Assembly (NCBI GenBank): GCA_025454875.1
Contig: JALONP010000029.1
Location: forward strand, 1 to 44,406
Direction of reading: 5' to 3'
DNA: 44,406 bases
Origin: Bacteroidia bacterium
GTDB taxonomy: Bacteria > Bacteroidota > Bacteroidia > UKL13-3
Shown here: positions 7,643 to 30,226 of the stretch, piece by piece
How positions within the stretch are numbered: position 1 is the first letter of the stretch
Layout of the letters: each line of letters opens with the position of its first letter
Position numbers and translations under genes: made by a program
The notes under the pieces: model-generated
Database searches by the model: none
What the model saw: the letters and a program-made list of their open reading frames with translations, nothing else
Told to the model about the DNA's origin: nothing

Positions 7643-7644
7643 GC

Positions 7645-8286: not shown

Positions 8287-8296
8287 CGGTGTTTGC

Positions 8297-9517
8297 ATGA
8301 TACATTTTAAAGCCGTTGTTCTAACTTGCCTATGTTGGTTGAGCTCAGCGGTTGTCTGCGCACAATATTACCAAGTGGTTGACTCGGGTCAGTATGCTCA
8401 TAAACGGGATGTAATTGACTTGTTGCAGGAGTATAAATTTGGTACGGATTCAGCTGCACTGCTCAAACCCAAACGCATTACCAAAAAGGTGCAGATAGCT
8501 TTGGTGCCAACTGTTGCCGCTGTTCCAGGTTCGGGTGGTTTTGCATTTATTACTGCGGTAAATGCATCGTTTTTGTTAGGGCCACCACAAACCACAAACA
8601 TGTCGAATGTATATTTTACACCATACACCAATTTTAGTGGTAAATATGTATTCCCATTATCATCATACATATGGAGCGCTAATAATAAATGGAATTGGGT
8701 AGGTGATTATCGGTATTATATTTACCCAAGGTATACGTATGGATTTGGTGCTGATTCGAAACAATCAGACCGAACCCTAATTGAGTACAACCATTTGCGG
8801 TTGCACCAACGTGTGCTACGCAAAATTACGGGTCCGTGGTTGGCTGGTATTGGTTACCATTTGGATTACCATCATGATGTGAAAGAGTTTGCTGATGATG
8901 CTTCGAAAGCGTATATCAGCGCGTATGATGGAGTGTCAAACACATCAACTGTTTCAAGTGGTGTATCTGTTTCAACGGCAGTCGACTCAAGAGCCAACGC
9001 TGCCAATGCACAGCAAGGTATTTATGCGGCAGTTGTGTACAAATGGATGCCTACTTGGTTAGGAAGCACCAGCCAGTGGCAAAGCATATACACGGATATC
9101 AGATTGTATCATTCGTTTAATCCTCGTAAGCAAAATGTACTCGCATGTTGGTTTTTTTATTGGGATATTGTAAACGGTAGAGCACCTTACCTTGATTTAC
9201 CTTCTACAGCTTGGGATCAAAATTACCGTTCGGGTAGGGGTTATTACCAAGGCCGCTTTACCGGAACAGGCATGGCATATGCAGAGATAGAGTACCGATT
9301 TGACCTTACCCAAAATGGTTTATGGGGAGCAACCATATTTGCCAATATGCAATCATTACGTAATCCAAACACACAACAATTTGAACGTTATGCTCCAGCG
9401 GTTGGTACTGGGTTACGGCTTAAATTTAACAAGTACTCCAATAACAACCTTACTGCAGATATTGCTTTTGGTCGAAACAGTTGGAATTACTATTTTGGCA
9501 TTGCTGAATACTTTTAA
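8297..9517 (+). CDS. Omp85/BamA-type barrel protein without POTRA domains
   Basis: The 406-residue precursor has a signal peptide ending at VVCAQ. After about 60 residues it becomes a barrel: SNVYFTPYTNFSGKY, WVGDYRYYIYPRYTYGFG, YNHLRLHQRVLRK, and the last strands GTGLRLKFN and DIAFG with terminal AEYF. This resembles the C-terminal 16-strand domain of the bacterial surface antigen (D15/Omp85) family. The chain is too short, with no room for POTRA repeats, so it is not BamA itself. It is the fourth gene of the envelope operon (10-bp gaps on each side). Export or insertion of a product of the operon is a possible role. That is inference. Confidence 0.65.
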   Translation: MIHFKAVVLTCLCWLSSAVVCAQYYQVVDSGQYAHKRDVIDLLQEYKFGTDSAALLKPKRITKKVQIALVPTVAAVPGSGGFAFITAVNASFLLGPPQTTNMSNVYFTPYTNFSGKYVFPLSSYIWSANNKWNWVGDYRYYIYPRYTYGFGADSKQSDRTLIEYNHLRLHQRVLRKITGPWLAGIGYHLDYHHDVKEFADDASKAYISAYDGVSNTSTVSSGVSVSTAVDSRANAANAQQGIYAAVVYKWMPTWLGSTSQWQSIYTDIRLYHSFNPRKQNVLACWFFYWDIVNGRAPYLDLPSTAWDQNYRSGRGYYQGRFTGTGMAYAEIEYRFDLTQNGLWGATIFANMQSLRNPNTQQFERYAPAVGTGLRLKFNKYSNNNLTADIAFGRNSWNYYFGIAEYF

Positions 9518-9527
9518 CACACTATAC

Positions 9528-10175
9528 ATGAGCGATTGGATTTTACCTGCTATTGAAACATATGCTGCACAACATACCTCAACAGAGCCTCCTGTTTTAA
9601 AACAGCTTAACCGAGATACGCATGCAAATGTGTTGCAACCTCGTATGCTGAGTGGCCATTACCAAGGCCGGTTGTTAAGCATGCTGAGTCACATGATTGC
9701 GCCAAATTACATTCTCGAAATTGGAACCTATACAGGCTACTCTGCTATTTGCTTGGCCGAAGGATTGGCCCAAGGAGGAAGGCTAATTACCATTGATGTG
9801 AATGCAGAGCGCGAAGAGATGGTAAACCAGTACATTGAGCAAGCAGGGTTTGCTCATCAAATACAACATATTATTGGCGATGCGTTGCGCATTATTCCAA
9901 CGCTACCCTATACGTATGATTTGGTGTTTATTGATGCGGACAAACCCAACTATCCTGCGTATTATGAATTGGCTTTAGCTAAGGTGAGGTCAGGAGGTTT
10001 TATTTTGTTAGACAATGTATTGTGGAGTGGCAAAGTGGCTGATATTAATGAACGCGAACGGGATAAGGATACTGCGTTGTTGCACAAACTCAATCTACAT
10101 ATTCAAAGCGATGACAGAGTGGAGAATGTTTTATTGCCCTTACGTGACGGATTGTTGTTGGTACGCAAACGTTAA
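9528..10175 (+). CDS. O-methyltransferase, SAM-dependent, family 3
   Basis: The 215-residue enzyme resembles caffeoyl-CoA and catechol O-methyltransferase-like proteins of bacteria. Motif I is LEIGTYTGYSA (63-73), with the acidic SAM-ribose residue Asp90. FIDADKPNYPAYY with Asp136, and LDNVLW with Asp162-Asn163, provide the expected divalent-metal ligands. I start at the ATG at 9528, 10 bp after the barrel gene, because the longer frame would run back into that gene. It is the last gene of the operon. Members are broad-specificity cytoplasmic enzymes, so its link to the four envelope genes may be only transcriptional. The family is certain; the substrate is not. Confidence 0.88.
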   Translation: MSDWILPAIETYAAQHTSTEPPVLKQLNRDTHANVLQPRMLSGHYQGRLLSMLSHMIAPNYILEIGTYTGYSAICLAEGLAQGGRLITIDVNAEREEMVNQYIEQAGFAHQIQHIIGDALRIIPTLPYTYDLVFIDADKPNYPAYYELALAKVRSGGFILLDNVLWSGKVADINERERDKDTALLHKLNLHIQSDDRVENVLLPLRDGLLLVRKR

Positions 10176-10314
10176 TGTTTAGGGTGTTATGTTATGTTTA
10201 ATGATGCAAATACCTCTTTTTTTCTTAGAATGAAGTCCCTACCTTGCATTTCCTATCTGCGTATATTTTATGTAAGCAGCGGATAATTAAAATAAATAAC
10301 ATTTTATAAACTTG

Positions 10315-13300
10315 ATGTTATTCAAAACACCATATAACAATCGCTTTTGGGTACTGCTGTTTATTGCCGTGATTCTATTTACGAATACACAGCGGGTAAC
10401 TGCACAGGCACAATGTGCAAACGGTGTATTGAATGTGGCTATTAATACACCTACGGTACCAGCAGGCTGTAGGCCCGTTACGGTAGGTGTAAATTCAAAT
10501 CCAACAACAGGTACGGGTGAAGCAACAGCAACATATCAGTGGTTTATCAATGGTGTGTTATTGGATAGTGTTATCAATACTGGGAACCGCAATTTGCAAT
10601 TTAACCCAGGAGTTTATACTATTCAAGTTGTGGGAAGAGCCACCACAGGCTGTCTCGATACTGCAACTCGCGTCATCAATGTTTCGGCAGGTACAGGTAT
10701 TGCAGGAATTGTTGATCCCCCTCGAATCAATACACCAACTTTGCGTCCTATTTGGACACGCTGTAATACCAACCCGAACAATCCGGCAAATAGTTTTACC
10801 ATGAATGTGGTTACACAAGCGCCCGACACGCTTAAAAACTATACCATTATTTGGGGAGATGCAACACCTAATACCACTGGAGCTGTTTCAGCTCCAGGCA
10901 ATTTAATTTCGCATACATATACCACATTGGGCGAGTTTAATGTTACCATTATCAATGATAACGGTTCATGTATTGATACCATAAGAGGCATTGTGCGAAA
11001 TTTGCGTCCGGTTACGGCAACCATCTTGCCTTTACCTGCGGGTCAGTTAGCAGGTTGTGCTCCACATACCATCACATTTACCGATTCTACTGAAAATGCA
11101 TTACCGGGTACGGTGCTTACGTGGAACTTCGGTGTGGGACAAGCAACTGTTGTTCGCAATCATACCCAAGCCAATTCACCTATTTCGTATACGTATCCGC
11201 GTGAAGCCAGCCAACAATGTATTTTCACTGTTTCACTAACGGCATTCAACTCCAATTGCAATAGCGGTCCGCCTTCCACTGTATCGGTTAGTCCGATTTT
11301 AATTTTTGATGAAGATATAGCCGATATTACCGTTGCCACTCCATTGTGTGATTCGACTCGAACCATCACGTTTCAAAACACATCACAATTAAATTGCGAA
11401 ACAGGGCAGCGTTTGTGGTTTTGGGATTTTGGTGATGGCACCAACACGGGCTGGATTACTTCGCAAGGAGCGCAAGTGCATACATTTCCAACATTCGGAA
11501 CCTACACTGTGATGTTGATTGATAGTAATTTTTGTGGAGCCGACACCACATTCGAAACAATTGTAGTGAATAGAAGACCTTTGGTTGGATTTACATTAAA
11601 CCCAAAGCAAGGTTGCGCTCCACTAAACGTAACGTATACCGATACTTCACTTGGATTGGGTATTACAAGGGTTTGGAATTTTGGTGCAGGTTCTGGTATT
11701 GCCAATCGCACCGATTCAACCAACACAGTTACTTTTAATAATCCAGGTACATTTGTAGTTACGCTAACTGCTACCAATGTTTGCGCCTCTCGATCGGCAG
11801 TAGATACGGTGAAGGTTTTTGCTAAACCTACTGTTCGTATTCGAAGCGGTCCTAATGGATGTGCACCATTTACCCGAACGTTTGAAGACAGTACCATTAA
11901 CCAATCACCAACGGCTACCTATAAATGGACCTTTGGCAATGGGGATTCTTCAGTGTTGCGCAATCCACCACCAATTACTTACACCACTCCCGGCAGTTAT
12001 ACAGTTAAATTGGTTGTGACTGATACGTGTGGTGCTGATTCATTTACCACAACGGTAAATGTGTTCACTGTTCCAACTGCAAGCTTCACTGCTACCACAG
12101 TTTGTCGAGGCGATTCCACTGCATTTACAAACTCATCTAGCCTGGCAGTGGGTGATGTGATAGCGGCCTTTAAGTGGTATTTTGGCGATGGTGATAGCAG
12201 TATTCTATCAGCCCCTAAACATGTGTATTTAACGGATGGTTCAAAACAAGCAGTATTGCGTATTCAAACGGATAAGGGTTGTGTTGATTTTGATACCATA
12301 ACCGTTTTGGTTGATGTTTCGCCAATTGTAACCATTGCCTCTGCTAACAGTGCATGTGATACCAATAGCATTTCGTTTGATGGAACGGCTACAACCTCTA
12401 TTGGTACCATTACTGCCTATCGATGGACCTTTGGGGTAGGTACTTCTGATACTGCTATCAGCGAAGATACATCTTATGTTTTTCCAGGACCCGGAACTTA
12501 CACAGTAAGGTTTAAAGTTGATAATAGCACAGGCTGTTCATTTACCCAACAAAAAAACATTACCATTCACCCCATTCCAGATGCGAGGCCAACAGCATCT
12601 AATTTTTGTTTTGGTCAATTGGTGCAATTTCGCGATAGCTCAACCGTGGGATTTGGCAATACCATCGACTCCACTTTGTGGGATTTTACCAATAACCAAA
12701 GTATTGATGCAACCAATGCACAACCAGTTTTTCAATATCCAAGCGATGGTGTATTTACAGCTAAGTTACGTGTAGTAAGCAATAATGGATGTGCAAATGC
12801 AGACAGCCTTTTGGTAACCATTCATCCGCTTCCAAATGCCACTTTCACTATTGATGCAGCAAGTAAATGCAAGCTCGATTCGTTTGTATTCAGCAATACA
12901 TCAACCGGTGCAACATTGTACCGTTGGACATACGGAGATGGCAATCCTGATTCAGTTACAAGTACTGTTACACCCATTGCTAAAGCTTATGCTGATACAG
13001 GATCATTTCCGGTGAGGTTAATTGCGATAACAGGTTTTGGTTGCAGAGATACACTCGTACAAACCATACAGTCGCGGCCTTTTCCTGTGGCAACTTTTAC
13101 AGTAAATGATTCGGTATCGTGTGCACCTAAAAATTTTGTATTTACCAATACATCCGTTTTGGCAGATCAATACAGTTGGTGGGTAAATGGCACCCAAACA
13201 AGTACTGCAACCAATAGGCCTGATACGTTTATAGCTACAAGCGGACAAACATTTGTTGTAAGACTTATAGCAACCAACGTTTTTGGATGCAAACCTGATA

Positions 13301-16300
13301 CGGTGCAAAAAACCATTCAAACCATTACCAATCCAATTCCGATTTTTACTTCTAATGTAGACAGTGGTTGTGGACCATTGGCTGTATTCTTTACCAATAA
13401 CAGTATTGGGGCAACATCATTTGCATGGACACTAGGCGATGGAAGCACCGCAATTACCACAAATACATCGGCAGTATACTTACCTTCACTTGTGAATGAT
13501 AGTATTTACAATATAAAGTTGGTTGCCTTTAACGGTCCTGGTTGCAAAGATTCTGTTTCGAAAACAATACGTGTATTTCCACAACCCGAAAGTAAATTCA
13601 TTCAAAACCAAACTGCTAATTGCGGACCATTGCTTGTAACGTTTACCAACCAATCAGTGCATCACTTTGGAGGTACTTTTAACGATTTAACGTTTAATTG
13701 GAACTTTGGAAATGGCATCGTTGCAACAGGGTCAGATACTGTTAATACATTTATTGCTTCAGCTGTTCAAGATACGGTTTACCAAATCAGGTTGATTGCC
13801 ACTACACGATTTGGTTGCAGCGATACAAGCAACTCAACTGTTCGCGTCTATCCAAATCCAACAGCGCAGTTTTTGGTAAATCAAGACAATGGATGTGCGC
13901 CTTTCCCTGTCCAATTTATTAATACATCGGTTCCTAATGATACAGGAACCATCTCCATCATGACGTTTAATTGGGATTTTCGAAATGGTGCCACCGCAAT
14001 TTCACAAAATACGTCTCAAACCTTTGACGCGAGTCTAACACAAGACACAGTTTATTTGGTAAGGTTAACTGCATTCAGCGAACATGGATGTACTGATACA
14101 ACCACAAGAGGTATTAGGGTATATCCTAAACCACATGCCGATTTTACCATGCCAAATGATAGTGGATGTACACCATTTAATGTGGTTTTTACCAATACAT
14201 CAGTTCCATTTGATACAGGCAGTATAGCCGATATGAGTTTTGTGTGGGATTTGGGAAATGGATTTGGGAGTATTACGCAAAATGCATTTTCGCAATACAA
14301 TTCGCGGCCACTTGCTGATAGCAGTTACTTGGTTACTTTATTTGCTACAAGCGAACACGGTTGCCGAGATACTGTGAGTAAAAGAATCGTTTCGCACCCG
14401 TTGCCTGTAGCCTCTTTTACCAATAGTAATGGCCAAGGATGCGGGCCTTTGCAAGTCCAGTTTACAAGCAACTCTTTACTCGCAGCAACACATCGTTGGC
14501 ATTTTGGAGATGGAGATTCAGCGAGTGTATCAAACCCCATCCATGTTTTCCGTTCGTATGATTTAATAGATTCTATTTACCAAGTTACGTTAGCGGTACA
14601 ATCTGTTTTTGGGTGCGAAAGTGATACTGCTTTTGGAAATATTATTGCCCGTTATCAACCCGTAGCTGATTTTGTGCCTGCACGCGATTCTATTTGCAAT
14701 ACGGGTGTTATTGCATTTACCAATTTAAGCATTGGAGGTGTGAGTAACCAATGGAACTTTGGAAATGGATTCACATCTACTACCATTAACCCGGCATCAA
14801 CGTTTGCCGCATTGCCAACAAGAGATACTACATACACCATTCGGCTCGTGGTTTCAACTCCATACAATTGCCGCGACACCACTTTTAGAACAGTTAAGGT
14901 AAATCCAATACCGGATGCACAATTTACTGCTACGGCATCGGGTTGTACGCCTTTACCTGTTACGTTAAACAATACGTCATTAAGGGCTACTGCATTTGCT
15001 TGGGATTTTGGCGATGGCTCGGTTGATAGTACTGCAGTACCTACTAAAACATTGGTAAATACATCGCCATTAGCAACCACTCCTTATACGATTACACTTA
15101 CTGCAATTTCTGCAAGTGGTTGTATTGATACAGCCAAACGAAACGTTTTGGTTAGACCCGAACCTGTTGCGCAAATAAGTCCGAACTTACCTGATGGTTG
15201 TGGTCCGCTTGCTGTTGCATTTAACAATACATCTGCTTCAAACTTTTTTGGCAGTACAGGCATGACCTTCGATTGGCAATTGGGAAATGGCCAAACAAGC
15301 ACCGTTCGAAATGCAACAACAACTTACCAAGCAAGTACTACTGCAGATACGGTGTATACTGCGCGCCTTATTGCCATTAGTGAATTTGGTTGCCGTGATA
15401 CGGTTACCCAATCGATTCGGGTGTATCCTAAACCACAAGCAATTTTTACTGTAGACGCTGATTCGGGTTGCACACCTTTGGCTGTTTCGTTTAACAACAA
15501 TTCAATACCAAACGATACAGGAACAATTGCTATCATGAGTTTTGTATGGGATTTTGGCAATGGATTTAATGCGGTTACGCAACAAGCCAATGCATTGTAT
15601 GTAAATAATACAGCGGCTGATTCGGTATACAGAGCAAGGCTTTTTGCATCAAGTGAACATGGTTGCCGCGATACAGCAACACAATTTATTCGTGTGCATC
15701 CCAAACCTTTTGCAGCATTTACACAAGACCGAATACAAGGTTGTGGGCCATACCCTGTTTCATTTACAAGCACTTCGCAAAACAGTACACAGTTTAAATG
15801 GTATTTTGGAGATGGCGATTCTACGCAAACGCAAAATCCAGTGCATGTGTTTCAATCAATACCGTTAGTTGATACTTTTTACAGGGTACAATTGGTAACG
15901 CGTTCTGCATTTGGATGTGTGAGCGATACTGCTTTTCGAAATATTTTTGGCAGGGCCATACCAATTGCGCAATTTGCCTCATCAGCAGATTCTACTTGCA
16001 ATCCGGGTACCATCTCTTTCTTTAATGCATCACAAGGTGCAGCATCTAATAGTTGGAGTTTTGGTAATGGATTTACTTCAACAGCATTTAACCCAAGTGT
16101 GCTGTTTACCGGACCTGCTACACGCGATACAACTTATACCGTGCGACTTGTAGTTACCTCACCTGCAACCTGCCGCGATACAGCATTTAGAACCATTAAG
16201 GTGAACCCGCTGCCTGTTGCACAATTTGCATCCATTAACCAAGGTTGTACACCATTGCCGGTTTCATTTACCAACACATCACAACGAGCGGTAAGTTATG

Positions 16301-18015
16301 AATGGGATTATGGCGATGGTAGTTTAGTAGACCCAACGGCAGCTCCTACACGTATTTTTCAAAACAATTTGGCACTTGCTAACCGTACACTGCAAGTTGT
16401 GCTCAAAGCAATTTCTGCTTCTGGTTGTCAAGATACCGCGCATAAAACCATTACTGTTTTTCCGCTTCCATTGGTTGATTACTCAATTGTTAAAACCCAA
16501 CGATGTGATACAGCTGAGTTTGCAACCAATAATGCAACACAAGGAGCGGTAAGTTACCAATGGCGCAATCCGAATCAACTGCTTAGTACAAATCAAAATC
16601 CATTGGTGTATTTTAGAACTGCACGTGACAATGATACGACCCATCAACTCAAATTGATTGCCACAACACCAAATGGATGCAGAGATAGTCTTACCAAACC
16701 TGTTCTAGTAAGGCCACTGGTTGAGGCCAACTTCTTTTCTGATTCGGTTTCAAGTTGTTCGAATTTGCAAGTAAGTTTCACCAATACCAGTCGCAATGGC
16801 AACAGCTACTTTTGGGAGTTTGGTGATGGAAGTGGTTCGCCACTGACCAATCCTAAACACCGATACACCTCTACTGGAGCTTATGGTGTTACTTTAATTG
16901 CATACGATCGTTTTGGATGCAGCGACACGTTGGTTCGAAACAATTTAATCAATGTATTTGAAGTGCCTGTTGCCAACTTCACATATACACCACCATTTGC
17001 GCGGCTGCCTAATTCCACGATTGAGTTTTCCAACAGTTCGTTTATCAGTTCAGGCACGCTTCAACACCAATGGCGCTTTGATGACCCTGTAACATTGCCG
17101 AATACGTCAGACGTACCAAATCCTTCATTTACGTTTAGCGATTCGGGTAATTTCACCGTGAGGCTTAGGGTAAATACTGTTCAAGGATGTGCTGATTCAA
17201 CAGCGCGTGTGATTCGAATTGAGCCACATTTACCAATAGCAAATTTTAGCATTGACTTACCAGCAGGATGTTCACCGCATACTGTTTCGTTCATAAATTT
17301 AAGCCAATTTTCTGATACCTATTTTTGGGATTTTGGAGATGCAAGTCAATCAACTGAAACGAATCCAACACATACGTACACCTTTCCGAATACGTACAAT
17401 GTATACTTAAGAGCACGCGGACCAGGTGGTGTTGATGATACGCTACAATCTGCAATAATCACCGTATTTCCTTTGCCACGTGCTAATTTTATTGTTACGC
17501 CCATTAAATTGATTATTCCCAATTCAACGGTTACGCTCACTGATATCTCACTTGATGCAGTTGGTTGGAAATGGAAAATTACTGATGGAAATACAACTGT
17601 ATTCGAAAGCCAATTGCAATCTACAGAATACACATTTGGCCAAGAAGGAATATTTGATGTGGAGTTAATTGCCATTAGCAAAGATGGGTGTGAAGATACA
17701 CTGGTAAAGGGGCAGTTGGTTAATGTACTGAAGGGTGGAAGCAGGTTAATTGCCAATGCATTTACTCCCAATGATGATGGTGTGAACGATCGGTTTAAAC
17801 CTACTGTTTCAGGGGTGCTTCGTGATGAGTATGAATTTAGCATTTACGATCGATGGGGTCAGTTATTGTTTAAAACCAATGATATCAATGAATCCTGGGA
17901 TGGAACATTTGGCGGAAAACCTGCAACTTCTGATGTGTATGTTTGGTTGCTTAAAGGTATTTTGGTGGGTGGCGATTCATTTACCGATTCGGGTAATGTA
18001 ACGTTATTGCGTTAA
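10315..18015 (+). CDS. giant PKD-repeat cell-surface protein with gliding-type CHU_C C-terminal domain
   Basis: The predicted protein is 2566 residues from the ATG at 10315 (a TTG directly before it is less likely). It has a signal peptide ending at VTAQA, then about 28 tandem modules of roughly 80-95 residues, counted by the W-x-F/L-G-D/N-G core seen in most of them, typical of PKD domains. Most modules open with GCxPLxVxFxN and close with GCxDT followed by a VxPxP linker. The last about 90 residues (AFTPNDDGVNDRF, FSIYDRWGQLLF, WDGTFGG) are the gliding-motility-associated C-terminal domain that directs T9SS export and surface attachment. It resembles large adhesins such as SprB in layout only. 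Its 3' end is duplicated at 21551-21649. No perfect promoter box is seen; TACCTTGC at 10240 is a weak candidate. Confidence 0.92.
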   Translation: MLFKTPYNNRFWVLLFIAVILFTNTQRVTAQAQCANGVLNVAINTPTVPAGCRPVTVGVNSNPTTGTGEATATYQWFINGVLLDSVINTGNRNLQFNPGVYTIQVVGRATTGCLDTATRVINVSAGTGIAGIVDPPRINTPTLRPIWTRCNTNPNNPANSFTMNVVTQAPDTLKNYTIIWGDATPNTTGAVSAPGNLISHTYTTLGEFNVTIINDNGSCIDTIRGIVRNLRPVTATILPLPAGQLAGCAPHTITFTDSTENALPGTVLTWNFGVGQATVVRNHTQANSPISYTYPREASQQCIFTVSLTAFNSNCNSGPPSTVSVSPILIFDEDIADITVATPLCDSTRTITFQNTSQLNCETGQRLWFWDFGDGTNTGWITSQGAQVHTFPTFGTYTVMLIDSNFCGADTTFETIVVNRRPLVGFTLNPKQGCAPLNVTYTDTSLGLGITRVWNFGAGSGIANRTDSTNTVTFNNPGTFVVTLTATNVCASRSAVDTVKVFAKPTVRIRSGPNGCAPFTRTFEDSTINQSPTATYKWTFGNGDSSVLRNPPPITYTTPGSYTVKLVVTDTCGADSFTTTVNVFTVPTASFTATTVCRGDSTAFTNSSSLAVGDVIAAFKWYFGDGDSSILSAPKHVYLTDGSKQAVLRIQTDKGCVDFDTITVLVDVSPIVTIASANSACDTNSISFDGTATTSIGTITAYRWTFGVGTSDTAISEDTSYVFPGPGTYTVRFKVDNSTGCSFTQQKNITIHPIPDARPTASNFCFGQLVQFRDSSTVGFGNTIDSTLWDFTNNQSIDATNAQPVFQYPSDGVFTAKLRVVSNNGCANADSLLVTIHPLPNATFTIDAASKCKLDSFVFSNTSTGATLYRWTYGDGNPDSVTSTVTPIAKAYADTGSFPVRLIAITGFGCRDTLVQTIQSRPFPVATFTVNDSVSCAPKNFVFTNTSVLADQYSWWVNGTQTSTATNRPDTFIATSGQTFVVRLIATNVFGCKPDTVQKTIQTITNPIPIFTSNVDSGCGPLAVFFTNNSIGATSFAWTLGDGSTAITTNTSAVYLPSLVNDSIYNIKLVAFNGPGCKDSVSKTIRVFPQPESKFIQNQTANCGPLLVTFTNQSVHHFGGTFNDLTFNWNFGNGIVATGSDTVNTFIASAVQDTVYQIRLIATTRFGCSDTSNSTVRVYPNPTAQFLVNQDNGCAPFPVQFINTSVPNDTGTISIMTFNWDFRNGATAISQNTSQTFDASLTQDTVYLVRLTAFSEHGCTDTTTRGIRVYPKPHADFTMPNDSGCTPFNVVFTNTSVPFDTGSIADMSFVWDLGNGFGSITQNAFSQYNSRPLADSSYLVTLFATSEHGCRDTVSKRIVSHPLPVASFTNSNGQGCGPLQVQFTSNSLLAATHRWHFGDGDSASVSNPIHVFRSYDLIDSIYQVTLAVQSVFGCESDTAFGNIIARYQPVADFVPARDSICNTGVIAFTNLSIGGVSNQWNFGNGFTSTTINPASTFAALPTRDTTYTIRLVVSTPYNCRDTTFRTVKVNPIPDAQFTATASGCTPLPVTLNNTSLRATAFAWDFGDGSVDSTAVPTKTLVNTSPLATTPYTITLTAISASGCIDTAKRNVLVRPEPVAQISPNLPDGCGPLAVAFNNTSASNFFGSTGMTFDWQLGNGQTSTVRNATTTYQASTTADTVYTARLIAISEFGCRDTVTQSIRVYPKPQAIFTVDADSGCTPLAVSFNNNSIPNDTGTIAIMSFVWDFGNGFNAVTQQANALYVNNTAADSVYRARLFASSEHGCRDTATQFIRVHPKPFAAFTQDRIQGCGPYPVSFTSTSQNSTQFKWYFGDGDSTQTQNPVHVFQSIPLVDTFYRVQLVTRSAFGCVSDTAFRNIFGRAIPIAQFASSADSTCNPGTISFFNASQGAASNSWSFGNGFTSTAFNPSVLFTGPATRDTTYTVRLVVTSPATCRDTAFRTIKVNPLPVAQFASINQGCTPLPVSFTNTSQRAVSYEWDYGDGSLVDPTAAPTRIFQNNLALANRTLQVVLKAISASGCQDTAHKTITVFPLPLVDYSIVKTQRCDTAEFATNNATQGAVSYQWRNPNQLLSTNQNPLVYFRTARDNDTTHQLKLIATTPNGCRDSLTKPVLVRPLVEANFFSDSVSSCSNLQVSFTNTSRNGNSYFWEFGDGSGSPLTNPKHRYTSTGAYGVTLIAYDRFGCSDTLVRNNLINVFEVPVANFTYTPPFARLPNSTIEFSNSSFISSGTLQHQWRFDDPVTLPNTSDVPNPSFTFSDSGNFTVRLRVNTVQGCADSTARVIRIEPHLPIANFSIDLPAGCSPHTVSFINLSQFSDTYFWDFGDASQSTETNPTHTYTFPNTYNVYLRARGPGGVDDTLQSAIITVFPLPRANFIVTPIKLIIPNSTVTLTDISLDAVGWKWKITDGNTTVFESQLQSTEYTFGQEGIFDVELIAISKDGCEDTLVKGQLVNVLKGGSRLIANAFTPNDDGVNDRFKPTVSGVLRDEYEFSIYDRWGQLLFKTNDINESWDGTFGGKPATSDVYVWLLKGILVGGDSFTDSGNVTLLR
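13588..16470 (+). repeat. higher-order duplication of PKD module blocks
   Basis: Modules in 13588-15165 (six) recur in the same order in 15166-16470 (five). Paired signatures are MSFVWDLGNGFG / MSFVWDFGNGFN, HRWHFGDGDS / FKWYFGDGDS, NQWNFGNGFT / NSWSFGNGFT, and AFAWDFGDGS / SYEWDYGDGS. The first block has one extra module (VPNDTGT and VPFDTGS are neighbours there). This indicates duplication of a five-module unit plus one single-module duplication or loss. Confidence 0.7.
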
Positions 18016-18211
18016 ACCATTTGGTCCAATACACGTGCTCTGTATAAATGCAATAAACTCGACTTTGAGATAAATCCGATATAGTTTCCTTGCAGGGTAA
18101 TAACCGGTATATACCATACTTGATATTGCTCAAAAAAGGGCATAATCACATCCAACGACATATTGTTGTGTGCAACAATTTTGGGTGCGCGCATTAATTG
18201 CGAAATGGTTA
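17917..18211. repeat. 295-bp direct repeat, left copy
   Basis: It aligns without gaps to 21551-21845 (constant offset 3634 bp). I count 17 mismatches by eye, about 94% identity. It contains the last 99 bp of the PKD gene and the last 200 bp of the ClC reading frame on the opposite strand, overlapping at their stop codons. Identity ends sharply after 18211. Confidence 0.93.
18012..18211 (-). pseudogene. stranded 3' fragment of a ClC gene
   Basis: The minus strand encodes the last 66 residues of the ClC protein (LTISQLMRAPKIV to RARVLDQMV), matching the intact gene at 21646-23454 with four amino-acid differences. The homology stops at 18211, and the membrane domain and first CBS domain are absent. 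It has no plausible start and should not be expressed as a protein. The frame is still open, and its differences from the intact copy are mostly silent (9 of 13). Confidence 0.88.
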
Positions 18212-18414
18212 GCTTAAACAAGGATGCAAGAATTCACAATAATTGCTTAGTTACTTTTTATACAACCATTGATATTTATAATACTGTTTTATTCTGATTA
18301 GCAGAGTGACGTGCTCTGATTGCTAACTTCGAAGGCTAGATTACGATAACCGCTTGATTATTCAGGGTAGATTAAACAGCACTAACTTCTATTGTTAAAT
18401 TTATATTAAAATAG

Positions 18415-18442
18415 TTGTTTTATACCATATTATATATATTTG
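18415..18442 (+). promoter_or_regulatory. Bacteroidota-type promoter for the inserted genes
   Basis: TTG at 18415-18417, a 17-nt spacer and TATATTTG at 18435-18442 fit the TTTG/TTG...TAnnTTTG consensus. The lipoprotein ATG is at 18470, giving a leader of about 20 nt. Confidence 0.55.
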
Positions 18443-18469
18443 TTTCTCACATTAACCAATTATATAAAA

Positions 18470-19804
18470 ATGAAAAACATGCACAACTCCCTAAAACATT
18501 CAATAAGAATGGGGGCATTCCTATTAGTAGGATCACTAATTTTAGCTACAGGTTGCAAGCGTAATGTGGAAGAAACTCCTTTAAATCCATCTTCGCAAAA
18601 CACTTCAACTCAGTCTGACGCCAATATGCAAATGGCGATTAACAAGGCGGAACTTTACTGACAAAAGTTTGTAGACGACAATCTCATATTCAGTAAAAGT
18701 GGTGGCAATGATTTGCCTATGGACTCAGCTCTTTTTTATGTAAATACAGCATTGAATATAGAAAAAGGCAATGCTGATTTATACATGATTGAACAAATAA
18801 CCTTTGAAAAGATCTTTGATTTTAATGCAAATCAATTGAGTCTTACCGAGCAAGACATGAATAATTTATTTGACCAAATGATTGCCTTCGTAAATGCTAA
18901 ATTACAAAGTTTAGAAAACAATCAAGATAGAGGGGTTGTAGCCATTTATCTTAACAAATTACCATTGAATGAATTCAGCACAGAAATGCGCCTCGTTGGA
19001 AATGTCCTTTTTGGCAACAAGACTTTAAACCAACAGTTGTTGAATTTTTACAAAGCCGGTGGAGAGCCATTTCAACCTTATGAGAATTACCGATTCAATT
19101 TTAATGGTGGAGGGTGCAATCAGCAGCCTTATTATTCAGAGACGGACTTTGGTGGTTCACGAGTAGGGCAATTTGATGATGTACATGGTGTTACTAGGGG
19201 TTATACTACTGGTGGAGCCAAAGAGCTAGAACAACGCTTTAATAGTAATTACATTGCCCTTAAAACCCCTAATGGCAAAAACGTTTTACCTTATCAGCCA
19301 TTAGGCAGGAAATATATTTGGCAAAATATAAGGCAAATCATACCCAGTAAACCTGGGAATGATCAAGGTCGGGTTTTCCCTTGGGATGTTCCAATACCGA
19401 CAGCAACTTCGTATACTTATCAATCATCGAGACACAATCCAACGAGAATTTTTTCAAATTGGAGTTTAGCCATACATGGCACAATGGTATGTTTAAATGG
19501 TGGTATGCTTAATTATTACAACAACCAAGCAGTAGGCGTACTAGATAACGTTCTTTCCTCAAACACATTAACAGGTAGATTTTTTACAATGAACATACAT
19601 TCATCAAGATTGAGCTTACCTCCTGCCGGTGTTACAGACATTGAACAGCAAATGAGTTTAAATCAGAAGAATTCTTTAGGAATTAAAGATCCATATTTCT
19701 GGGGAAGCAACGGAGTTAGGTACTTTGAATATTTTAGACACCTATATTTGCCTTTACAGGGTAATTTGGTTGTTGTTAATGACCCTAGTTCTGGGGCATA
19801 TTAA
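18470..19804 (+). pseudogene. lipoprotein gene interrupted by an in-frame TGA
   Basis: From the ATG at 18470 the frame encodes a lipoprotein signal peptide (lipobox LATGC, Cys24) and about 40 more residues. It then meets TGA at 18659-18661 after AELY. The same frame continues without another stop for 380 codons to 19804 (QKFVDDNLIFSKS...), so one substitution, most simply TGG (Trp) to TGA, separates it from an intact gene of about 444 residues. TGA is an ordinary stop elsewhere in the window, for example at 39720. A shortened protein could restart at TTG 18713 or ATG 18719, but would lack a signal. I do not recognise the family. The downstream cargo gene starts 2 bp after it. Sequencing error is an alternative. 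Confidence 0.75.
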
Positions 19805-19806
19805 TA

Positions 19807-21363
19807 ATGCGAATCAGTAATTTAATCATATATATTTTGTTAGGGCTTGGGCAGGTTACTGCCCAAACCTACCGAAATATATTGCGTACCGATTCGCTTG
19901 TAGTAAGGCATGTATTGGATACAAAGGATGAAACTGTTTTTTGTGGAATGCAGCTATATAAGCAGGACTCCTTGCTTGGTAGTTACTTTAATTGTATGGT
20001 AGGTTCGGTTAACAAAACCACGGGTCTACAACAAAATGTGATATTATATCCAAACGATACAACCATCATTTTATACCCTTTCAAACTATTTAAGAATGAT
20101 TCAGGTTACACATTAATAAATGAATGCTATAGCGGAAGGGGCGATTCTATTTATAGATTTAGTGGGTTGTTAATAATTGATCTCAGTCCAACATTTACAA
20201 TACGTGATACCTTTAGGCATATTGTACATGAAGTTCCCGATAGCGTCAGAAACGTTATGGGGATGTATTCTGAGGTAGTCCAGCCCAAAACGGGTCAATT
20301 TCTTTTTCCATTAGTTTATAAAAAGGATGCCTATCCAAACAATTGGGAGTATAATGCTTTAGTGATATTTGAACAAGGCATATTTAAAATGTATGAATAT
20401 GAACTCGATGATATAGCTTCATTTATTACCACAATTCAGCCTGTTAACTATACCGATAGTATTAGCTATATGGCCTTTAGCGGTTATAGAGATGGTAGTG
20501 TTTTTTATTTAGACTCTTCTTTCAATATAGTAGCTAGAAAAGAGTACAATCCAGGTTCTATTGAATGGCAGTGGAAACCGCTTGAAGCAAGGTATTTAGG
20601 AAGTCCACTTTTTAGCATTACTCATCAAGATGCTATTTATGTAATTGGTGTTGCTGACTCAAGCCTACCAGGTGGCCAATACGCCCCAAGGGTGCATGTG
20701 CGCAAATGGCGCAATGGTATTCCAGTTGCTTTTGCGTGGCTAACTGATGCTGTTAATGAGTTCGTAGAAGAGTCTACCATAGATGATGCTTTCACCCATC
20801 AAGTGCGCTTATCGGTTTCAACAGAAGGGCGCATAATGGTGTTATTCAAATGTGATGCAGTTTCTAGGATGGTTACTTATTTGGCTATTTTAGATACCAA
20901 TTTAAGCATTATCAATCAACGTTTTTTAAACCGTGAAAGCCCATTTAGTAGTGGATTAATGGGCGTTGTGCCACAATACGAAAGACCTGGGGGATTGCTT
21001 TACGGATTGACTTGCAAGGACTGCGATGTCTTCTCTACAAACCCTTTTCAATTTAATGGATTTATTGCTTCTTTTGATAGTAATGGCGTATTCGCAAGCG
21101 CACCAAGAGTTGTTAGCAAAACGCAACTAGCACAAGTTTGGCCTAACCCAGCAAGCACATCTTTAACCTTTGGTACAAGCCAAAATATACACCAAATTGT
21201 TATTTACTCTATTCAAGGCAAATTGATAACAACAGCTACTGCAAATGAGCAAAGTTCAAATGAACTTGAATTAAACTGCACAAGCTGGCCAAGTGGTATT
21301 TACTTGGCATATATTACAACTGCCAACCAACAAACACATATTATAAAAGTGGTAAAGCGTTAA
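19807..21363 (+). CDS. secreted protein with T9SS type A sorting domain
   Basis: The 518-residue product has a signal peptide ending at QVTAQ. A beta-rich middle region of about 410 residues has no family I can name. The last about 80 residues are a T9SS (Por) C-terminal sorting domain: VWPNPASTSLTF, IYSIQGKLI, LELNCTSWPSGIYLAYI, and a terminal IKVVKR. It should be exported through the T9SS and attached to the surface or released. It follows the interrupted lipoprotein gene by 2 bp and shares its promoter, so the pair was probably a lipoprotein plus secreted partner. It lies wholly in the segment flanked by direct repeats, so it would be lost if the repeats recombined. Confidence 0.85.
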   Translation: MRISNLIIYILLGLGQVTAQTYRNILRTDSLVVRHVLDTKDETVFCGMQLYKQDSLLGSYFNCMVGSVNKTTGLQQNVILYPNDTTIILYPFKLFKNDSGYTLINECYSGRGDSIYRFSGLLIIDLSPTFTIRDTFRHIVHEVPDSVRNVMGMYSEVVQPKTGQFLFPLVYKKDAYPNNWEYNALVIFEQGIFKMYEYELDDIASFITTIQPVNYTDSISYMAFSGYRDGSVFYLDSSFNIVARKEYNPGSIEWQWKPLEARYLGSPLFSITHQDAIYVIGVADSSLPGGQYAPRVHVRKWRNGIPVAFAWLTDAVNEFVEESTIDDAFTHQVRLSVSTEGRIMVLFKCDAVSRMVTYLAILDTNLSIINQRFLNRESPFSSGLMGVVPQYERPGGLLYGLTCKDCDVFSTNPFQFNGFIASFDSNGVFASAPRVVSKTQLAQVWPNPASTSLTFGTSQNIHQIVIYSIQGKLITTATANEQSSNELELNCTSWPSGIYLAYITTANQQTHIIKVVKR

Positions 21364-21518
21364 GGTAAAGAAAGTCTGTTTGGTTGTATTAAGTGTTTTG
21401 ATACCCGATAATTAATCAAATTAGACATGAATGCGATTTTAGAAGACTTTTAATGGTATCCTTTACCTAAATAGCAAAATGAATTTATACCCTATTGGCT
21501 CTGCTTTTCGTACCCTCC

Positions 21519-21547
21519 TTACTCTTTCTCTTTTAAAGAAAAAGTAA
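21519..21547. repeat. palindrome, copy 2 of the motif at 53-83
   Basis: TTACTCTTTCT, a 7-nt loop and AGAAAAAGTAA form an inverted repeat with one mismatch. The arms are nearly the same as those of the palindrome at 53-83. It ends 3 bp before the right-hand 295-bp repeat and may also terminate transcription of the cargo gene and of the opposing ClC gene. Confidence 0.6.
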
Positions 21548-21550
21548 GCG

Positions 21551-21649
21551 AAACCTGCAACTTCTGATGTGTATGTTTGGTTGCTTAAAGGTATTTTGGT
21601 AGGTGGTGATTCATTTACCGATTCGAGTAACGTAACGTTATTGCGTTAA
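21551..21649 (+). pseudogene. stranded 3' fragment of the PKD/CHU_C gene
   Basis: The fragment encodes KPATSDVYVWLLKGILV and the remaining residues to TLLR-stop, identical to the end of the giant protein except for one Gly-to-Ser change. Three of four base differences are silent. There is no start or promoter. The palindrome at 21519-21547 directly precedes it. Confidence 0.88.
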
Positions 21650-21845
21650 ACCATTTGGTCCAATACACGTGCTCGGTACAAATGCAATACGCTCGACTTT
21701 GAAATAAATCCGATATAGTTTCCTTGCTGGGTAATAACCGGTATATACCATACTTGGTATTGTTCAAACAAGGGCATAATCAAATCCAACGACATATTAT
21801 TGTGTGCAACAATTTTTGGAGCGCGCATTAATTGCGAAATGGTTA
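21551..21845. repeat. 295-bp direct repeat, right copy
   Basis: This is the partner of 17917-18211. It contains a 99-bp tail of the PKD gene ending in the same TAA, and the 3' end of the intact ClC gene. Confidence 0.93.
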
Positions 21846-23454
21846 ACCGATCATACAACGTATGGGTAAACATTACATCCCTAATATCATCAAGTGTAAT
21901 AATGCCCACAAGCAAACCATTGCGGTTTACAACTGGGAAAACATTGCGTTTTGATTGGCTAATGGTATCAACCAATGTTCTCAGTTTTTGGTCGGGTAGT
22001 AAAGATGTAAAATCCGACTCAATTACCATTTCCAAGTTGAGTTGATTTAATACATTGGTATCGTTATCAGAACTCATCTGCCCGCGCTCAATAAGTGTTT
22101 TGGTGTAAATAGAGTTAGGTTCAAAATACCTGGTAAAAAAGTATGCAATAGCCGATACAACCATCAGCGGAACAAACAACGCATAACCGCCCGTAATTTC
22201 GGCAATTAAAAAGATAGCGGTAAGCGGAGCATGCAGCACACCGCTAATTAAGCCACCCATAGCAACTGCAACAAAATTTTGTTCGTTCAAAGTAATGATA
22301 CCTGTTAAGTTAATGGCATGAGCGAACACAAAACCCAATACAGAACCAGTGAACAACGAGGGTCCAAAAATTCCACCATTGCCACCTGAACCAACAGTGA
22401 TGGATGATGCAATAACCTTTACCAACACAAGCAGTACTCCAAATAACAATACGAACCACGTATGGTGTTGCAGGTTGTAAAATAAACTATTATCGAACCA
22501 AGCTGTGAATGAACCTTGCATGAGCTGAGCACTAATCTCATAGCCTTCGCCATACAAAGGAGGGAAGATAAAAATGAGCACCCCTAATCCAATTCCTCCA
22601 ATGATGCCTTTAAAATAAGGGTTTTGCGTGCGGCTAAAAAGGCCTTCTACTTTTAGGGTGGTGCGAATCATGTAAACAGATACTGCACCACAACATACAC
22701 CTAAGAGCGCATAAAAGGGTAATGCTTGTACACGCCAACTATCAATGGTTAAATAAAACAACTGACCACTGTAAAACAATTTAGAAACCACTGCCCCCGT
22801 TGCCGATGCAATGAGCAAAGGGATAAATGCGGGGATGCTTACCTGGGTTAAGAGTACTTCAAAGGCAAACAAAACACCAGCTATTGGGCTGTTAAAAATA
22901 GCTGAAATTCCGGCAGCGGCTCCACTTGCAAGTAGCAATGTGCGATCAGATCTGCTCATCAATAAATTTTTTGCGGTGTTGGAACCCAATGCCGACCCTG
23001 TAACAGCAATAGGGGCTTCCAATCCGGCCGACCCTCCAAAGCCAATGGTAAGCGCACTGGTAACAATATGCGAATAGGTTTTATGCAACTCTATAGTTGA
23101 GAACTTTTTATGAATAGCGTAAATAATGCTGCTTAATCCCTTGTCAAAAGATTTACGGTGGTGAAACAATCGCACATAGGCAACACTCAATACAATACCC
23201 ACAAGGGGATATATAAGGTACAGGTAATTTTCGTACCGAACGTTCCACCCATCGGCAAGCCAATGCTGTACCGCATGAACGGTTGATTTTAATACAACTG
23301 CAGCCGTACCTGCAAGTATGCCTACCCAAATGGCGGCAATAATCAAAAAATTTTGATCACTAATGTATTGATGCCGTTGTTTGGTAATTCGGTAAATCCA
23401 CAGCTTGGCATTCACACGCAATCGTTTAACCAATTCTTTCATAAGCAGTGGCAA
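21646..23454 (-). CDS. ClC-family chloride channel/transporter with tandem CBS domains
   Basis: The 602-residue protein has a ClC membrane domain (about 35-450) and two C-terminal CBS domains (about 460-602). GSAGLEAP (141-148) is the gating-Glu motif with Glu146 at the position of E. coli Glu148. GGIFGPSLFTGS is the GxFxP motif, and the Tyr in TGGYALFVP aligns with Tyr445. In FNSPIAGVLFAFEV the internal proton-relay position (E. coli Glu203) is Val200, as in animal ClC channels. The first anion motif (GSGIP in E. coli) is replaced by KGLSSI. Its 3' end lies in the 295-bp repeat, and a second copy of that end is at 18012-18211. The start could also be the Met four codons further in. Confidence 0.9.
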   Translation of the reverse strand: MPLLMKELVKRLRVNAKLWIYRITKQRHQYISDQNFLIIAAIWVGILAGTAAVVLKSTVHAVQHWLADGWNVRYENYLYLIYPLVGIVLSVAYVRLFHHRKSFDKGLSSIIYAIHKKFSTIELHKTYSHIVTSALTIGFGGSAGLEAPIAVTGSALGSNTAKNLLMSRSDRTLLLASGAAAGISAIFNSPIAGVLFAFEVLLTQVSIPAFIPLLIASATGAVVSKLFYSGQLFYLTIDSWRVQALPFYALLGVCCGAVSVYMIRTTLKVEGLFSRTQNPYFKGIIGGIGLGVLIFIFPPLYGEGYEISAQLMQGSFTAWFDNSLFYNLQHHTWFVLLFGVLLVLVKVIASSITVGSGGNGGIFGPSLFTGSVLGFVFAHAINLTGIITLNEQNFVAVAMGGLISGVLHAPLTAIFLIAEITGGYALFVPLMVVSAIAYFFTRYFEPNSIYTKTLIERGQMSSDNDTNVLNQLNLEMVIESDFTSLLPDQKLRTLVDTISQSKRNVFPVVNRNGLLVGIITLDDIRDVMFTHTLYDRLTISQLMRAPKIVAHNNMSLDLIMPLFEQYQVWYIPVITQQGNYIGFISKSSVLHLYRARVLDQMV

Positions 23455-27631: not shown

Positions 27632-29677
27632 TTATTTGGGTGCAAACCATTGCCATGCTCCTTGCGTGGTTAATTCATAAACAGCAGCAGGAAATACTTC
27701 TTTTCGAAGTTTGTTTAGTGCATCCTTGCGGTAACTTTTATTAACAATAAAGGTATCTACTTGCAATAAGCTAATTGCTTTTGGATGCATGTGTTGGGTA
27801 ACAATAGCATAGGTAGCTTTAATCGGTTTTGTTGGCATACAAGAGCCGGTGAATACCCACGATGTTTGACCAACTTGAATGTGTGTCCAATTAGAATCCA
27901 ATACGTTTATAGCAACAGGTTTAAGTCCACTTCTCCATTGGTGTTGTTTCACTTGAAACGAAATGGCACTTAAGTTTGTATCAATGTCATTGTTAATCCA
28001 AAAAATACTTGAACGCCCTTTGATGTATTGCGCGGCCGTGTTGTTACCAACAGCAAACACAATAAAGCGATGTTGCTCCCATTGATGCAATCGTTTAACC
28101 AAGTGTTGCCCGCTTAAAAGAATACTTACAGCAAGCATTGTCCATAAACCTGCTTTGTTTTTTTTCCAAAACCAAATGGTGCATCCACCAATAAGCAAAT
28201 ACCATAAAATGGATTCAACAATGGAAATATGCAACCCACCTACATATGCATATGGAATGGATTCGACCCAACTTACGAGTTGGTTTGTAAATTGAATAAG
28301 CCAAGTTAAAATTGCGCCTAACCAACCAGCAACCAATGGCCACCAGCAGCAAGCCAGCAAAATCAAAATACCATATAGAATAATGGTTGTGAGCGGAATG
28401 ATGAGCAAATTTGAAAACAAAAAGCAATTGGGGAATTGGTGAAAATACAATAAACCAATTGGGAAGGTGATGAGTTGTGCAGCAATGGATACAGCTGTGA
28501 TGCTCCATATTTGCTTACCCAACCATGTTACGGGTGTAAGCCATGTTTGAATAATAGGTTGAAAAAAGACAATGCCAAGTACAGCCAAGTAACTTAGTTG
28601 AAAACCAACATTAGCCAACATATTGCAATTGGCGCACAAAAGAACCAATGCCGAAGCAGCTAGTGTATTGTAGCTTGATGATTTGGTTTCAAATATTTGC
28701 CCAACAATAAGAAAAGAAAACATCACTGTAGCTCGCAAAATGGATGGTGAAAAACCACATATGACAGAGTATCCCCAAAGGCATAAACAAATACACAAGA
28801 GTTTAATCTTTTTTGGTGTTCCAGTTTGTGCAATGGGTGAGGTAAGCAACAACAACAAGCCAAAAATTAATCCAACATGCATACCCGAAACAGCCAGTAC
28901 ATGCAGTGTGCCTGTGTTTGCATAAGCTTGCATCGTTTCTTGCGAAATGGCATCATCATCACCGTACAACAGCGCTTGTGCAACACCCACTTCGTTTTGG
29001 GTTCCTAAATAATATTGCAATGTTTGTTTAAAAAATACTTGCAGTTTGTATACTGCATGTAAACCTCTAATACCATAAAATCCATTTACCTTAATAGCAT
29101 ACCCCGATTGAAGGTAAGCTTGGTGGGCGATGTGTTTAAAGGCCAAATACCTTTTGTAGTTAAACTCATCAGGATTGAGTGGGGGCTGAACGGGAGCAAT
29201 GATATTGGCTGGAATTTTAATGAGTGTTCCATAACCAAATTGCTCTTTGGGTAAACGGGGGTCTATGTAAAGCAACAATGTTCCACTCGCTACTCTGTTG
29301 CTGCCTTTCTCGGTTGCACCTTTCACAATGCCAATTGTTTTATAAGCATGCGATTTTTGGGTCAGTGGTTCATTTACCAATACATAAAGCGAATCAAATT
29401 GGATTTTGCTAAAATGATGTGGCGGATGCGTGTTGCGAAGTTGATACAAGCAAATGCCAAAAACAAAAAGCAAGATATTAACCAACAAACCAAATACCCA
29501 CCTGAGTTTATAAGAGCGAAATAGGAAGAATGCAATTGCAACAAACAAGAGCAGTGTAACGAGTGCACCAATACTTACATTGGTTGGGGCTGTCCAAAAC
29601 ATGCCAATACCAATGCCAAATGCAAAAGGCAGCAGCAGACGCACAATGGGAACATGATGCCAGAACGACTTGCGCAT
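27632..29677 (-). CDS. ComEC/Rec2-family DNA-uptake channel protein
   Basis: The 681-residue polytopic membrane protein has N-terminal membrane segments and a DUF4131-like OB domain (about 30-200). The competence domain starts with HVLAVSGMHVG (259-269), the hallmark of ComEC. At least eight hydrophobic segments follow. ComEC passes single-stranded DNA through the inner membrane during natural transformation. The last about 150 residues are in the place of the metallo-beta-lactamase domain of Gram-positive ComEC, but no HxHxDH motif is present, so metal-dependent nuclease activity is not expected. It is transcribed separately from the YifB/ComM gene, which lies beyond the small membrane-protein gene. 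Confidence 0.88.
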   Translation of the reverse strand: MRKSFWHHVPIVRLLLPFAFGIGIGMFWTAPTNVSIGALVTLLLFVAIAFFLFRSYKLRWVFGLLVNILLFVFGICLYQLRNTHPPHHFSKIQFDSLYVLVNEPLTQKSHAYKTIGIVKGATEKGSNRVASGTLLLYIDPRLPKEQFGYGTLIKIPANIIAPVQPPLNPDEFNYKRYLAFKHIAHQAYLQSGYAIKVNGFYGIRGLHAVYKLQVFFKQTLQYYLGTQNEVGVAQALLYGDDDAISQETMQAYANTGTLHVLAVSGMHVGLIFGLLLLLTSPIAQTGTPKKIKLLCICLCLWGYSVICGFSPSILRATVMFSFLIVGQIFETKSSSYNTLAASALVLLCANCNMLANVGFQLSYLAVLGIVFFQPIIQTWLTPVTWLGKQIWSITAVSIAAQLITFPIGLLYFHQFPNCFLFSNLLIIPLTTIILYGILILLACCWWPLVAGWLGAILTWLIQFTNQLVSWVESIPYAYVGGLHISIVESILWYLLIGGCTIWFWKKNKAGLWTMLAVSILLSGQHLVKRLHQWEQHRFIVFAVGNNTAAQYIKGRSSIFWINNDIDTNLSAISFQVKQHQWRSGLKPVAINVLDSNWTHIQVGQTSWVFTGSCMPTKPIKATYAIVTQHMHPKAISLLQVDTFIVNKSYRKDALNKLRKEVFPAAVYELTTQGAWQWFAPK

Positions 29678-29779: not shown

Positions 29780-30226
29780 ATGTATTCATCTATTTTATTC
29801 TTACACAATGCCGCTCGTTGGGCTGTATTATTATTTGCGGTGTATGCCATCACTAAATCTATTTTGGGATTGCTGCACAAACGAGAGTTTACCAAACAAG
29901 CCAATATTGCACACGCAATTTTTGTAGGCTTTTGCCATTTGCAATTGTTGTTGGGTGTTACACTTTACATCATAAGTCCCAACGTAGATGCCGCACTAGC
30001 CAACGGTTTTGGCGCAGCCATGAAAGACAGCTACAGCAGGCTTATTGTATTGGAGCATATTACCATTAATGTAGTTGCCATTGCACTCATTCAGGTAGGA
30101 CGCACATTGTCTAAAAAAGCAACTGATGCAGCACAGAAGTACAAAAAGTCGTTGGTATTTTTTAGCATTGGCTTGGTGTTAATTTTGTCGCGCATACCAT
30201 GGCAATACTCGCCTTTGTGGCGTTAA
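29780..30226 (+). CDS. small four-helix membrane protein (cytochrome b-like, uncharacterised)
   Basis: The product is 148 residues from the ATG at 29780; a TTG 21 nt upstream is possible but falls inside the promoter spacing. Four hydrophobic segments are seen (about 12-30, 48-68, 90-108, 122-140). Conserved-looking His and aromatic residues lie at LHNAARW, FCHLQLLLG and LEHITIN. Similar proteins in Bacteroidota are often labelled cytochrome b without direct proof. The paired His residues would allow haem binding, but I cannot confirm this. The end overlaps the end of the YifB gene by 4 bp on the opposite strand. Confidence 0.6.
   Translation: MYSSILFLHNAARWAVLLFAVYAITKSILGLLHKREFTKQANIAHAIFVGFCHLQLLLGVTLYIISPNVDAALANGFGAAMKDSYSRLIVLEHITINVVAIALIQVGRTLSKKATDAAQKYKKSLVFFSIGLVLILSRIPWQYSPLWR

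Follow-up and report, generated by a model that had tools for sequence, protein, structure and literature searches.

How can a pair of genes come to lie between two convergent neighbours, leave both of those neighbours intact, and be bordered on each side by a copy of the neighbours' junction, yet supply no transposase? The question is raised by a 44,406-nucleotide stretch of DNA from a Bacteroidia bacterium (contig JALONP010000029.1, positions 1 to 44,406, referred to here as 'the window'). There, a gene for a PKD-repeat protein and a gene for a ClC channel are separated by a segment carrying a lipoprotein reading frame followed by a type IX secretion system (T9SS) cargo gene, a gene pair referred to here as 'the module'. 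The answer favoured, at a probability of roughly two in three, is that the module was acquired horizontally and came to lie between its two neighbours through insertion with long target duplication. The features upon which this argument is built are as follows.

10312..18015, forward strand: host gene 1, PKD-repeat protein with a CHU_C type IX sorting domain (open reading frame; Pfam PF18911, PF13585)
17917..18211, forward strand: left repeat copy, consisting of the last 99 bp of the PKD gene and, overlapping them, a 200-bp remnant of the ClC 3' end
18212..21550, forward strand: inserted segment, 3339 bp, GC 0.361, with edges taken from the repeat alignment
18470..19804, forward strand: module gene 1, lipoprotein frame of 444 codons, with an in-frame TGA at 18659-18661 (codon 64)
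19807..21363, forward strand: module gene 2, T9SS type A cargo protein of 518 amino acids (PF18962 / TIGR04183)
21551..21845, forward strand: right repeat copy, consisting of a 99-bp remnant of the PKD 3' end and, overlapping it, the last 200 bp of the intact ClC gene
21646..23454, reverse strand: host gene 2, ClC channel with CBS domains (open reading frame; PF00654, PF00571)

The two repeat copies are identical at 278 of 295 positions, that is, with 17 mismatches over 295 gapless columns and a start-to-start offset of 3634 bp; a first-pass annotation of this DNA had already described two gapless 295-bp copies 3634 bp apart. Each does indeed span the convergent 3' ends of the PKD and ClC genes, with the two stop codons overlapping in each copy (in the left one, the PKD TAA is found at 18013-18015 and the ClC stop, on the opposite strand, at 18012-18014). 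Each copy thereby consists of one working gene half and one remnant half, with PKD working on the left and ClC on the right. The repeat edges are sharp, as the flanking 202 bp beyond either edge align only at shuffle level (184/300 and 55/300 shuffles score as high as the real flanks). A longer ClC remnant, reaching 18413 with five stops, was suggested by protein search and was dropped, the tblastn match ending at 18211. The repetitive PKD gene apart, the sole other self-match within the window (E<=0.01) is 42 bp at 81%, and belongs to a dispersed element. Both remnants are in frame and lack stops or frameshifts, so that PKD and ClC would both stay open upon a crossover joining the two copies, and the annotation's claim that such recombination leaves both host genes intact holds.

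Between the repeat copies there are only two frames of at least 80 amino acids, i.e., the lipoprotein frame and the cargo gene, and in a Pfam scan neither matches a transposase or recombinase, which agrees with the annotation's claim that no transposase is enclosed. The GC content of the segment (0.361) lies below that of all 69 overlapping windows of the same size elsewhere in the contig (minimum 0.376). Short dispersed-element matches apart, no second copy of the segment was found in its own genome. Of the two enclosed genes as first annotated, the T9SS cargo gene stands, with a Por_Secre_tail domain at E 1.1e-11; the lipoprotein gene stands as a frame, but one which as assembled carries a nonsense codon.

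The lipoprotein and T9SS cargo genes form a hitherto unnamed module, with a patchy distribution in Bacteroidia. Lipoprotein homologues over most of the protein's length are present in 4 of 63 other genomes searched in the family, and in all four the next gene downstream is a cargo gene (511-518 amino acids, Por_Secre_tail domain). A wider lipoprotein profile matches 13/395 genomes of the class, with the window's own genome counted (two of these, G356 and G342, failed as clean pairs; G numbers here are genomes and L numbers loci), as well as 12/45 genomes of genus g22. A cargo-like gene usually lies downstream of these class and g22 matches, as judged by eye. In G168, G183, and G199 the modules are in tandem, with the tandem pairs of G183 and G199 having conserved ends. 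Locus L135 of G168 (7107-18931) holds four tandem modules with repeated spacers of ~300 bp. Three of these units are 100% identical over the first two thirds of the lipoprotein and 98-100% over the last eighth of the cargo, and vary at the lipoprotein end and the cargo middle; the fourth shares just 23-30% identity with the other three. No relative of the lipoprotein was found among the viral contigs, plasmids, and phages searched, a ClC scan of a wider contig collection confirmed no relative, and a lipoprotein-alignment scan of that collection yielded no members beyond G086, G002, G083, and G007. Among the papers listed by literature searches, no title or abstract opening contains a description of the module.

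Are repeats such as those of the window found around the module elsewhere? For 23 single modules of Bacteroidia genomes, the 600 bp found 5' of the lipoprotein were compared with the 500 bp found 3' of the cargo stop. Long direct repeats flank five of these modules, with scores of 27 to 252 (window, 244), versus 0 of 7109 control pairs at a score of >=20 and a control maximum of 18, which is also the top score among control pairs within the window. Controls were of the same spacing, from the same loci, overlapping, and at random positions. The repeats are 295 bp (window), 51 bp (G007), 27 bp (G183), 47 bp (G466), and about 411 bp (G457) in length, the last from a separate alignment, as the 23-module test gave 300 columns. 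The 23 modules are partly non-independent, with L087-L089 having a common left neighbour, L142, L165, and probably L161 a common site, and L137 and L163 another; flanks were short for L138 and L162, and L089 has no control pairs. Excluded prior to this count were L106 (by eye a xylanase, a false match), L141 and L145 (no clean pair), L164 (contig edge), L166 (broken frames), and the tandem arrays L103, L107, and L135. No repeat was found flanking the whole tandem array at L103 or L107.

By eye, the repeats of the five loci look unrelated to one another in sequence. What four of the five have in common is that the repeat is formed by the 3' end of a neighbouring gene. Besides the window, G007 has the 3' end of an alpha/beta hydrolase gene in convergent orientation, G183 has 27 bp out of the final ten codons of a gene for an S24-type repressor, and G466 has the last codons plus stop of an outer-membrane protein gene. 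In G457 the repeated stretch comes instead from the 5' portion of what by eye is a peptidase-like gene, and the two signal peptides differ. In G466 there are further small frames beyond the right copy. At L163 (reverse complement, 9943-10454) the small frames beyond the right repeat copy include one that by eye looks like the beginning of a PIN-type toxin, and the L163 site may be an insertion hotspot.

Background repeats were scanned for as direct repeats of >=24 bp and >=85%, 0.8-10 kb apart, at E<=1e-4. In 400 kb of G183 this returned only three repeats inside one open reading frame and one between two neighbouring open reading frames. In 400 kb of the window's own genome (G000) it returned three besides a CRISPR-like array, and two of these flank other accessory genes. 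A 67-bp direct repeat (97%; L220:7192-7258 and 8598-8663) flanks a BRO-N-domain gene; close by are what, judged by eye, are a CRISPR-like array and a Cas9-like gene. An 88-bp direct repeat (95%; L235:949-1036 and 2564-2651) flanks a PIN-domain gene, a small DUF6364 gene, and a small lipoprotein-like gene. At L223 there is a perfect 86-bp direct repeat (1-86 and 1051-1136), one copy of which is at a contig end. As the BRO-N and PIN-domain loci of the same genome are thus repeat-flanked too, the process is not peculiar to this module.

Do relatives possess these sites in an 'empty' form? The first-pass annotation had suggested that the window's locus could exist in two states within one population; at two other module sites, both filled and empty states are seen between species. 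For the G183 site, 41 of the genus's 45 genomes have the repressor gene, and of its loci the 30 best were taken, 29 of these from congeners. In 8 of these 29 the site is empty, i.e., the repressor lies beside the gene which in G183 is found beyond the module, with a gap of 114-697 bp, and the remaining 21 are uninformative because the partner gene is not within the ~1.5 kb fetched. For the G466 site, the gene is present in 42 of 45 genomes, and among the 29 congener loci taken 24 are empty, with the flanking genes adjacent (-27 to +181 bp by match ends). Of the other loci there, G361 has the module without detectable repeat, G242 has a lipoprotein fragment, two have neither module nor fragment, and one stops at a contig edge. 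As for the window itself, its genome's only congener, G001, has a different gene beside ClC. Some 10 kb from that ClC gene, G001 locus L091 (1-2993) has lengthy runs of tandem repeats with periods of ~410 bp and ~80 bp.

Where, then, did the second copy of the junction come from? One answer, which is unlikely though not to be dismissed lightly, is local duplication, that is, a staggered break or template switch that copied 295 bp in place, with the copies then drifting. This predicts a variable repeat length and repeat sequences that are unrelated between loci, as found, and the 27-bp copies of G183 are identical. The differences between the window copies speak otherwise, with 12 of the 17 synonymous (ClC 9/13, PKD 3/4). 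Local duplication was simulated in 4000 runs with omega at 0.05-0.3 and transition bias fixed at 2. With one copy free, five or fewer nonsynonymous changes among 17 were seen in 0.0008-0.004 of runs, i.e., the synonymous skew found here has P<=0.004 under free drift, versus 0.08-0.95 of runs with both copies constrained. Furthermore, in 44-50% of these one-copy-free runs a remnant gains a stop, whereas the remnants of the window possess neither stop nor frameshift. The G457 copies display the same synonymous skew (12/16), and synonymous differences number 1/1 in G466 and 2/3 in G007 (the latter counted by eye). As the copies differ mostly at synonymous sites, one of them was probably imported; judged from sequence, the two are probably alleles of two lineages, one having come in along with the module from a relative.

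Still less likely is that the window represents a reduced tandem array, in which repeat-module-repeat arrays have been shrunk by unequal crossing-over to one module with two spacers. The ~300-bp repeated spacers between G168 modules fit with this idea, as do the conserved ends of the G183 and G199 tandem pairs. Against it, the repeat is the end of a host gene in the window, G007, G183, and G466, and since congeners hold the G183 and G466 genes without the module, those repeats were not originally module spacers. Gene 3' ends are a usual integration choice of tyrosine recombinases, and in four of the five flanked modules such an end is the repeat, with the gene left open or nearly so, as one would expect from site-specific integration with long attachment sites and a recombinase acting in trans. 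We nevertheless consider this to be quite improbable: by eye the repeats, 27 to about 411 bp long, have no evident sequence in common from one locus to the next, in G457 it is a gene's 5' part that is repeated, and no integrase was found by Pfam in the segment or among 19 other window proteins, the neighbours of other modules being outside of that scan. DDE transposons possess terminal inverted repeats, a transposase, and a short target duplication of fixed length. A DDE transposon or insertion sequence was rejected, there being no transposase, repeats which are direct, and duplications of 27 to 295 bp; the 295 bp of the window do far exceed a transposon target-site duplication, as the annotation had pointed out. 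Least likely of all is an assembly chimera of two strain haplotypes. The 6% mostly synonymous divergence is as found between two strains, and the record matching G007 is a metagenome-assembled genome. Such a chimera, though, would still require real strains with ClC-remnant/segment and segment/PKD-remnant junctions, and the pattern is present in four other genomes, in one of them on a 3.86 Mb contig. A simple assembly duplication of the junction, which had been named as what would undo the first annotation, is likewise unlikely given that the copies differ at 17 sites and that other genomes show the same pattern.

Insertion with long target duplication, the reading preferred here, may be envisaged as follows. 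DNA from a related strain would carry the module beside that strain's own copy of the PKD/ClC junction. Upon entry this DNA would pair by homology at the recipient's PKD/ClC junction, with the other end closed by illegitimate joining; alternatively, it may have entered as a circle, integrated through one crossover. Either way, the outcome would be an insert flanked by the donor and the recipient junctions. Later recombination between the two copies could then result in deletion of the insert or, within arrays, in its amplification. A G361-like donor, i.e., with the module at a gene end and no repeat, in combination with an empty recipient would give rise to the G466 structure. More generally, and only tentatively, this might be a mobile surface-protein module that is spread by natural uptake without a recombinase of its own, with one-sided homologous capture bringing in the donor's gene end and with the two flanking alleles allowing for loss, regain, and tandem growth.

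A number of points weigh against this account. Eighteen of the 23 modules score at control level, that is, without such a repeat. The enrichment may be a property of mobile genes generally, given the repeat-flanked accessory genes of other kinds in the same genome; the controls were random positions rather than accessory genes. The repeat of G457 may reflect a tandem paralogue. Synonymous differences could result as well from exchange of alleles with an empty-site strain following a duplication, and the G183 copies, being identical over 27 bp, are silent as to donor origin. Both repeat edges in the window lie inside coding sequence, so that a donor with the module merely placed after a gene end would not be enough, and an earlier insertion or else a circle is needed there. 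Nor was an empty or a donor-like PKD/ClC junction found for the window: in a ClC search of 58 genomes, its own included, a match to the PKD C-terminus is absent within the 1.5-kb flanks of 29 ClC loci from other genomes. Lastly, with regard to uptake of DNA, ComEC is present too in bacteria that have never been shown to transform.

Two genes of the window, found near each other and ~6 kb from the insert, are relevant to that last point:

27632-29677, reverse strand: ComEC-type competence protein (PF03772, E 1e-63)
30223-31770, reverse strand: ChlI/ComM-like protein (PF01078)

Because the window encodes these proteins, DNA uptake is plausible.

A further feature lies at the right edge of the segment:

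21459..21550, forward strand: dispersed-element relic, ending at the right repeat copy (family of ~500 bp, mainly in the window's own genome)

The relic matches the dispersed element at 69% over 106 columns, and at 90% over the last 39 bp, and among the loci fetched it matched those of its own genome only. The family has 13 matches in that genome and partial ones in at least 8 of 61 other family genomes, and no match in G001 (with the best 10 candidates per genome scored). The elements are ~500 bp in length, with a AAAAAGTAAG hairpin (by eye), and are found at L002-L008, at L041-L047, and in the window at 26-270. As the vehicle of insertion the dispersed element was rejected as main cause, the right edge holding just a cut-off relic. 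The relic suggests that the segment may have sat earlier in a genome of this lineage.

What might the module's products be? Their signals imply that these are exported surface proteins. The lipoprotein frame has a signal peptide in which a lipobox-like cysteine can be recognized by eye; the frame is without a Pfam, NCBIfam, or PADLOC family at E<=0.1. Searches with the same three collections found no restriction-modification cargo in the segment, and an Rfam scan of 17500-22400 gave nothing at gathering thresholds. AlphaFold2 models from 5-row alignments have a mean pLDDT of 35.7 and 34.9 for the two proteins, and for that reason were kept out of a fold search. The lipoprotein frame is interrupted by a stop in G000, G002, and G361, with the cargo frame remaining open each time, which disfavours the lipoprotein as a needed immunity protein. 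The number of such stops varies with the search, a single-sequence search giving three in G002 and one in G086 and a profile search one and none, respectively. In G463 both module frames appear to be damaged.

Insertion with long target duplication was discovered in Helicobacter pylori, where as reported in PMC1643837 it often is tied to restriction-modification genes (Nobusato et al. 2000, Gene 259:99-108, as cited by PMC1643837, PMC3031569, and PMC4978471), and its target duplications are described as long and variable (PMC3031569). As there described, what is shared with the present locus is a lack of transposase, long and variable direct target repeats, and an empty site, here seen at two other sites. 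The differences are that there the cargo is restriction-modification, whereas here it is a lipoprotein and a T9SS cargo protein in Bacteroidia, and that here the copies are mostly synonymously divergent, pointing to a donor-derived copy. Repeats of >=5 bp, mostly <30 bp, are stated to flank about 10-18% of variable segments in three species (PMC2884548). In homology-facilitated illegitimate recombination (de Vries and Wackernagel 2002; Prudhomme et al. 2002; both via PMC2884548), foreign DNA is joined homologously at one end and illegitimately at the other, as envisaged here; retention of a duplicated anchor, by contrast, is deduced from the present sequences and not from the PMC2884548 account. 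Merodiploid formation by transformation, in which a ~3 kb fragment of partial homology triggers repeat-bordered duplications (PMC3784515), differs in that those duplications are of about 100-900 kb, versus a junction alone being doubled around new DNA. In Arabidopsis, according to PMC2869330, direct repeats of >30 bp flank moved genes more often than unmoved ones, generally consist of host non-transposon sequence, and have been explained with a circle-and-reinsert model, though this involves plants and other genes.

The accounts of insertion with long target duplication, in the portions drawn upon here, leave its mechanism unsettled. Beyond the first-pass annotation of a single locus, there now is a recurrent module, with other repeats elsewhere and with copy differences that mostly are synonymous. 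One kind of gene pair, that is, shows long target duplication at several sites unrelated to each other, and for two of these there are relatives in which the site is empty. The synonymous pattern distinguishes between an imported copy and local duplication, which makes the mechanism testable from sequence in more genomes. Revealed as well is a patchy, sometimes tandemly arrayed pair of predicted exported proteins, whose recurrence across Bacteroidia genomes points to the spread of genes without any transposase.

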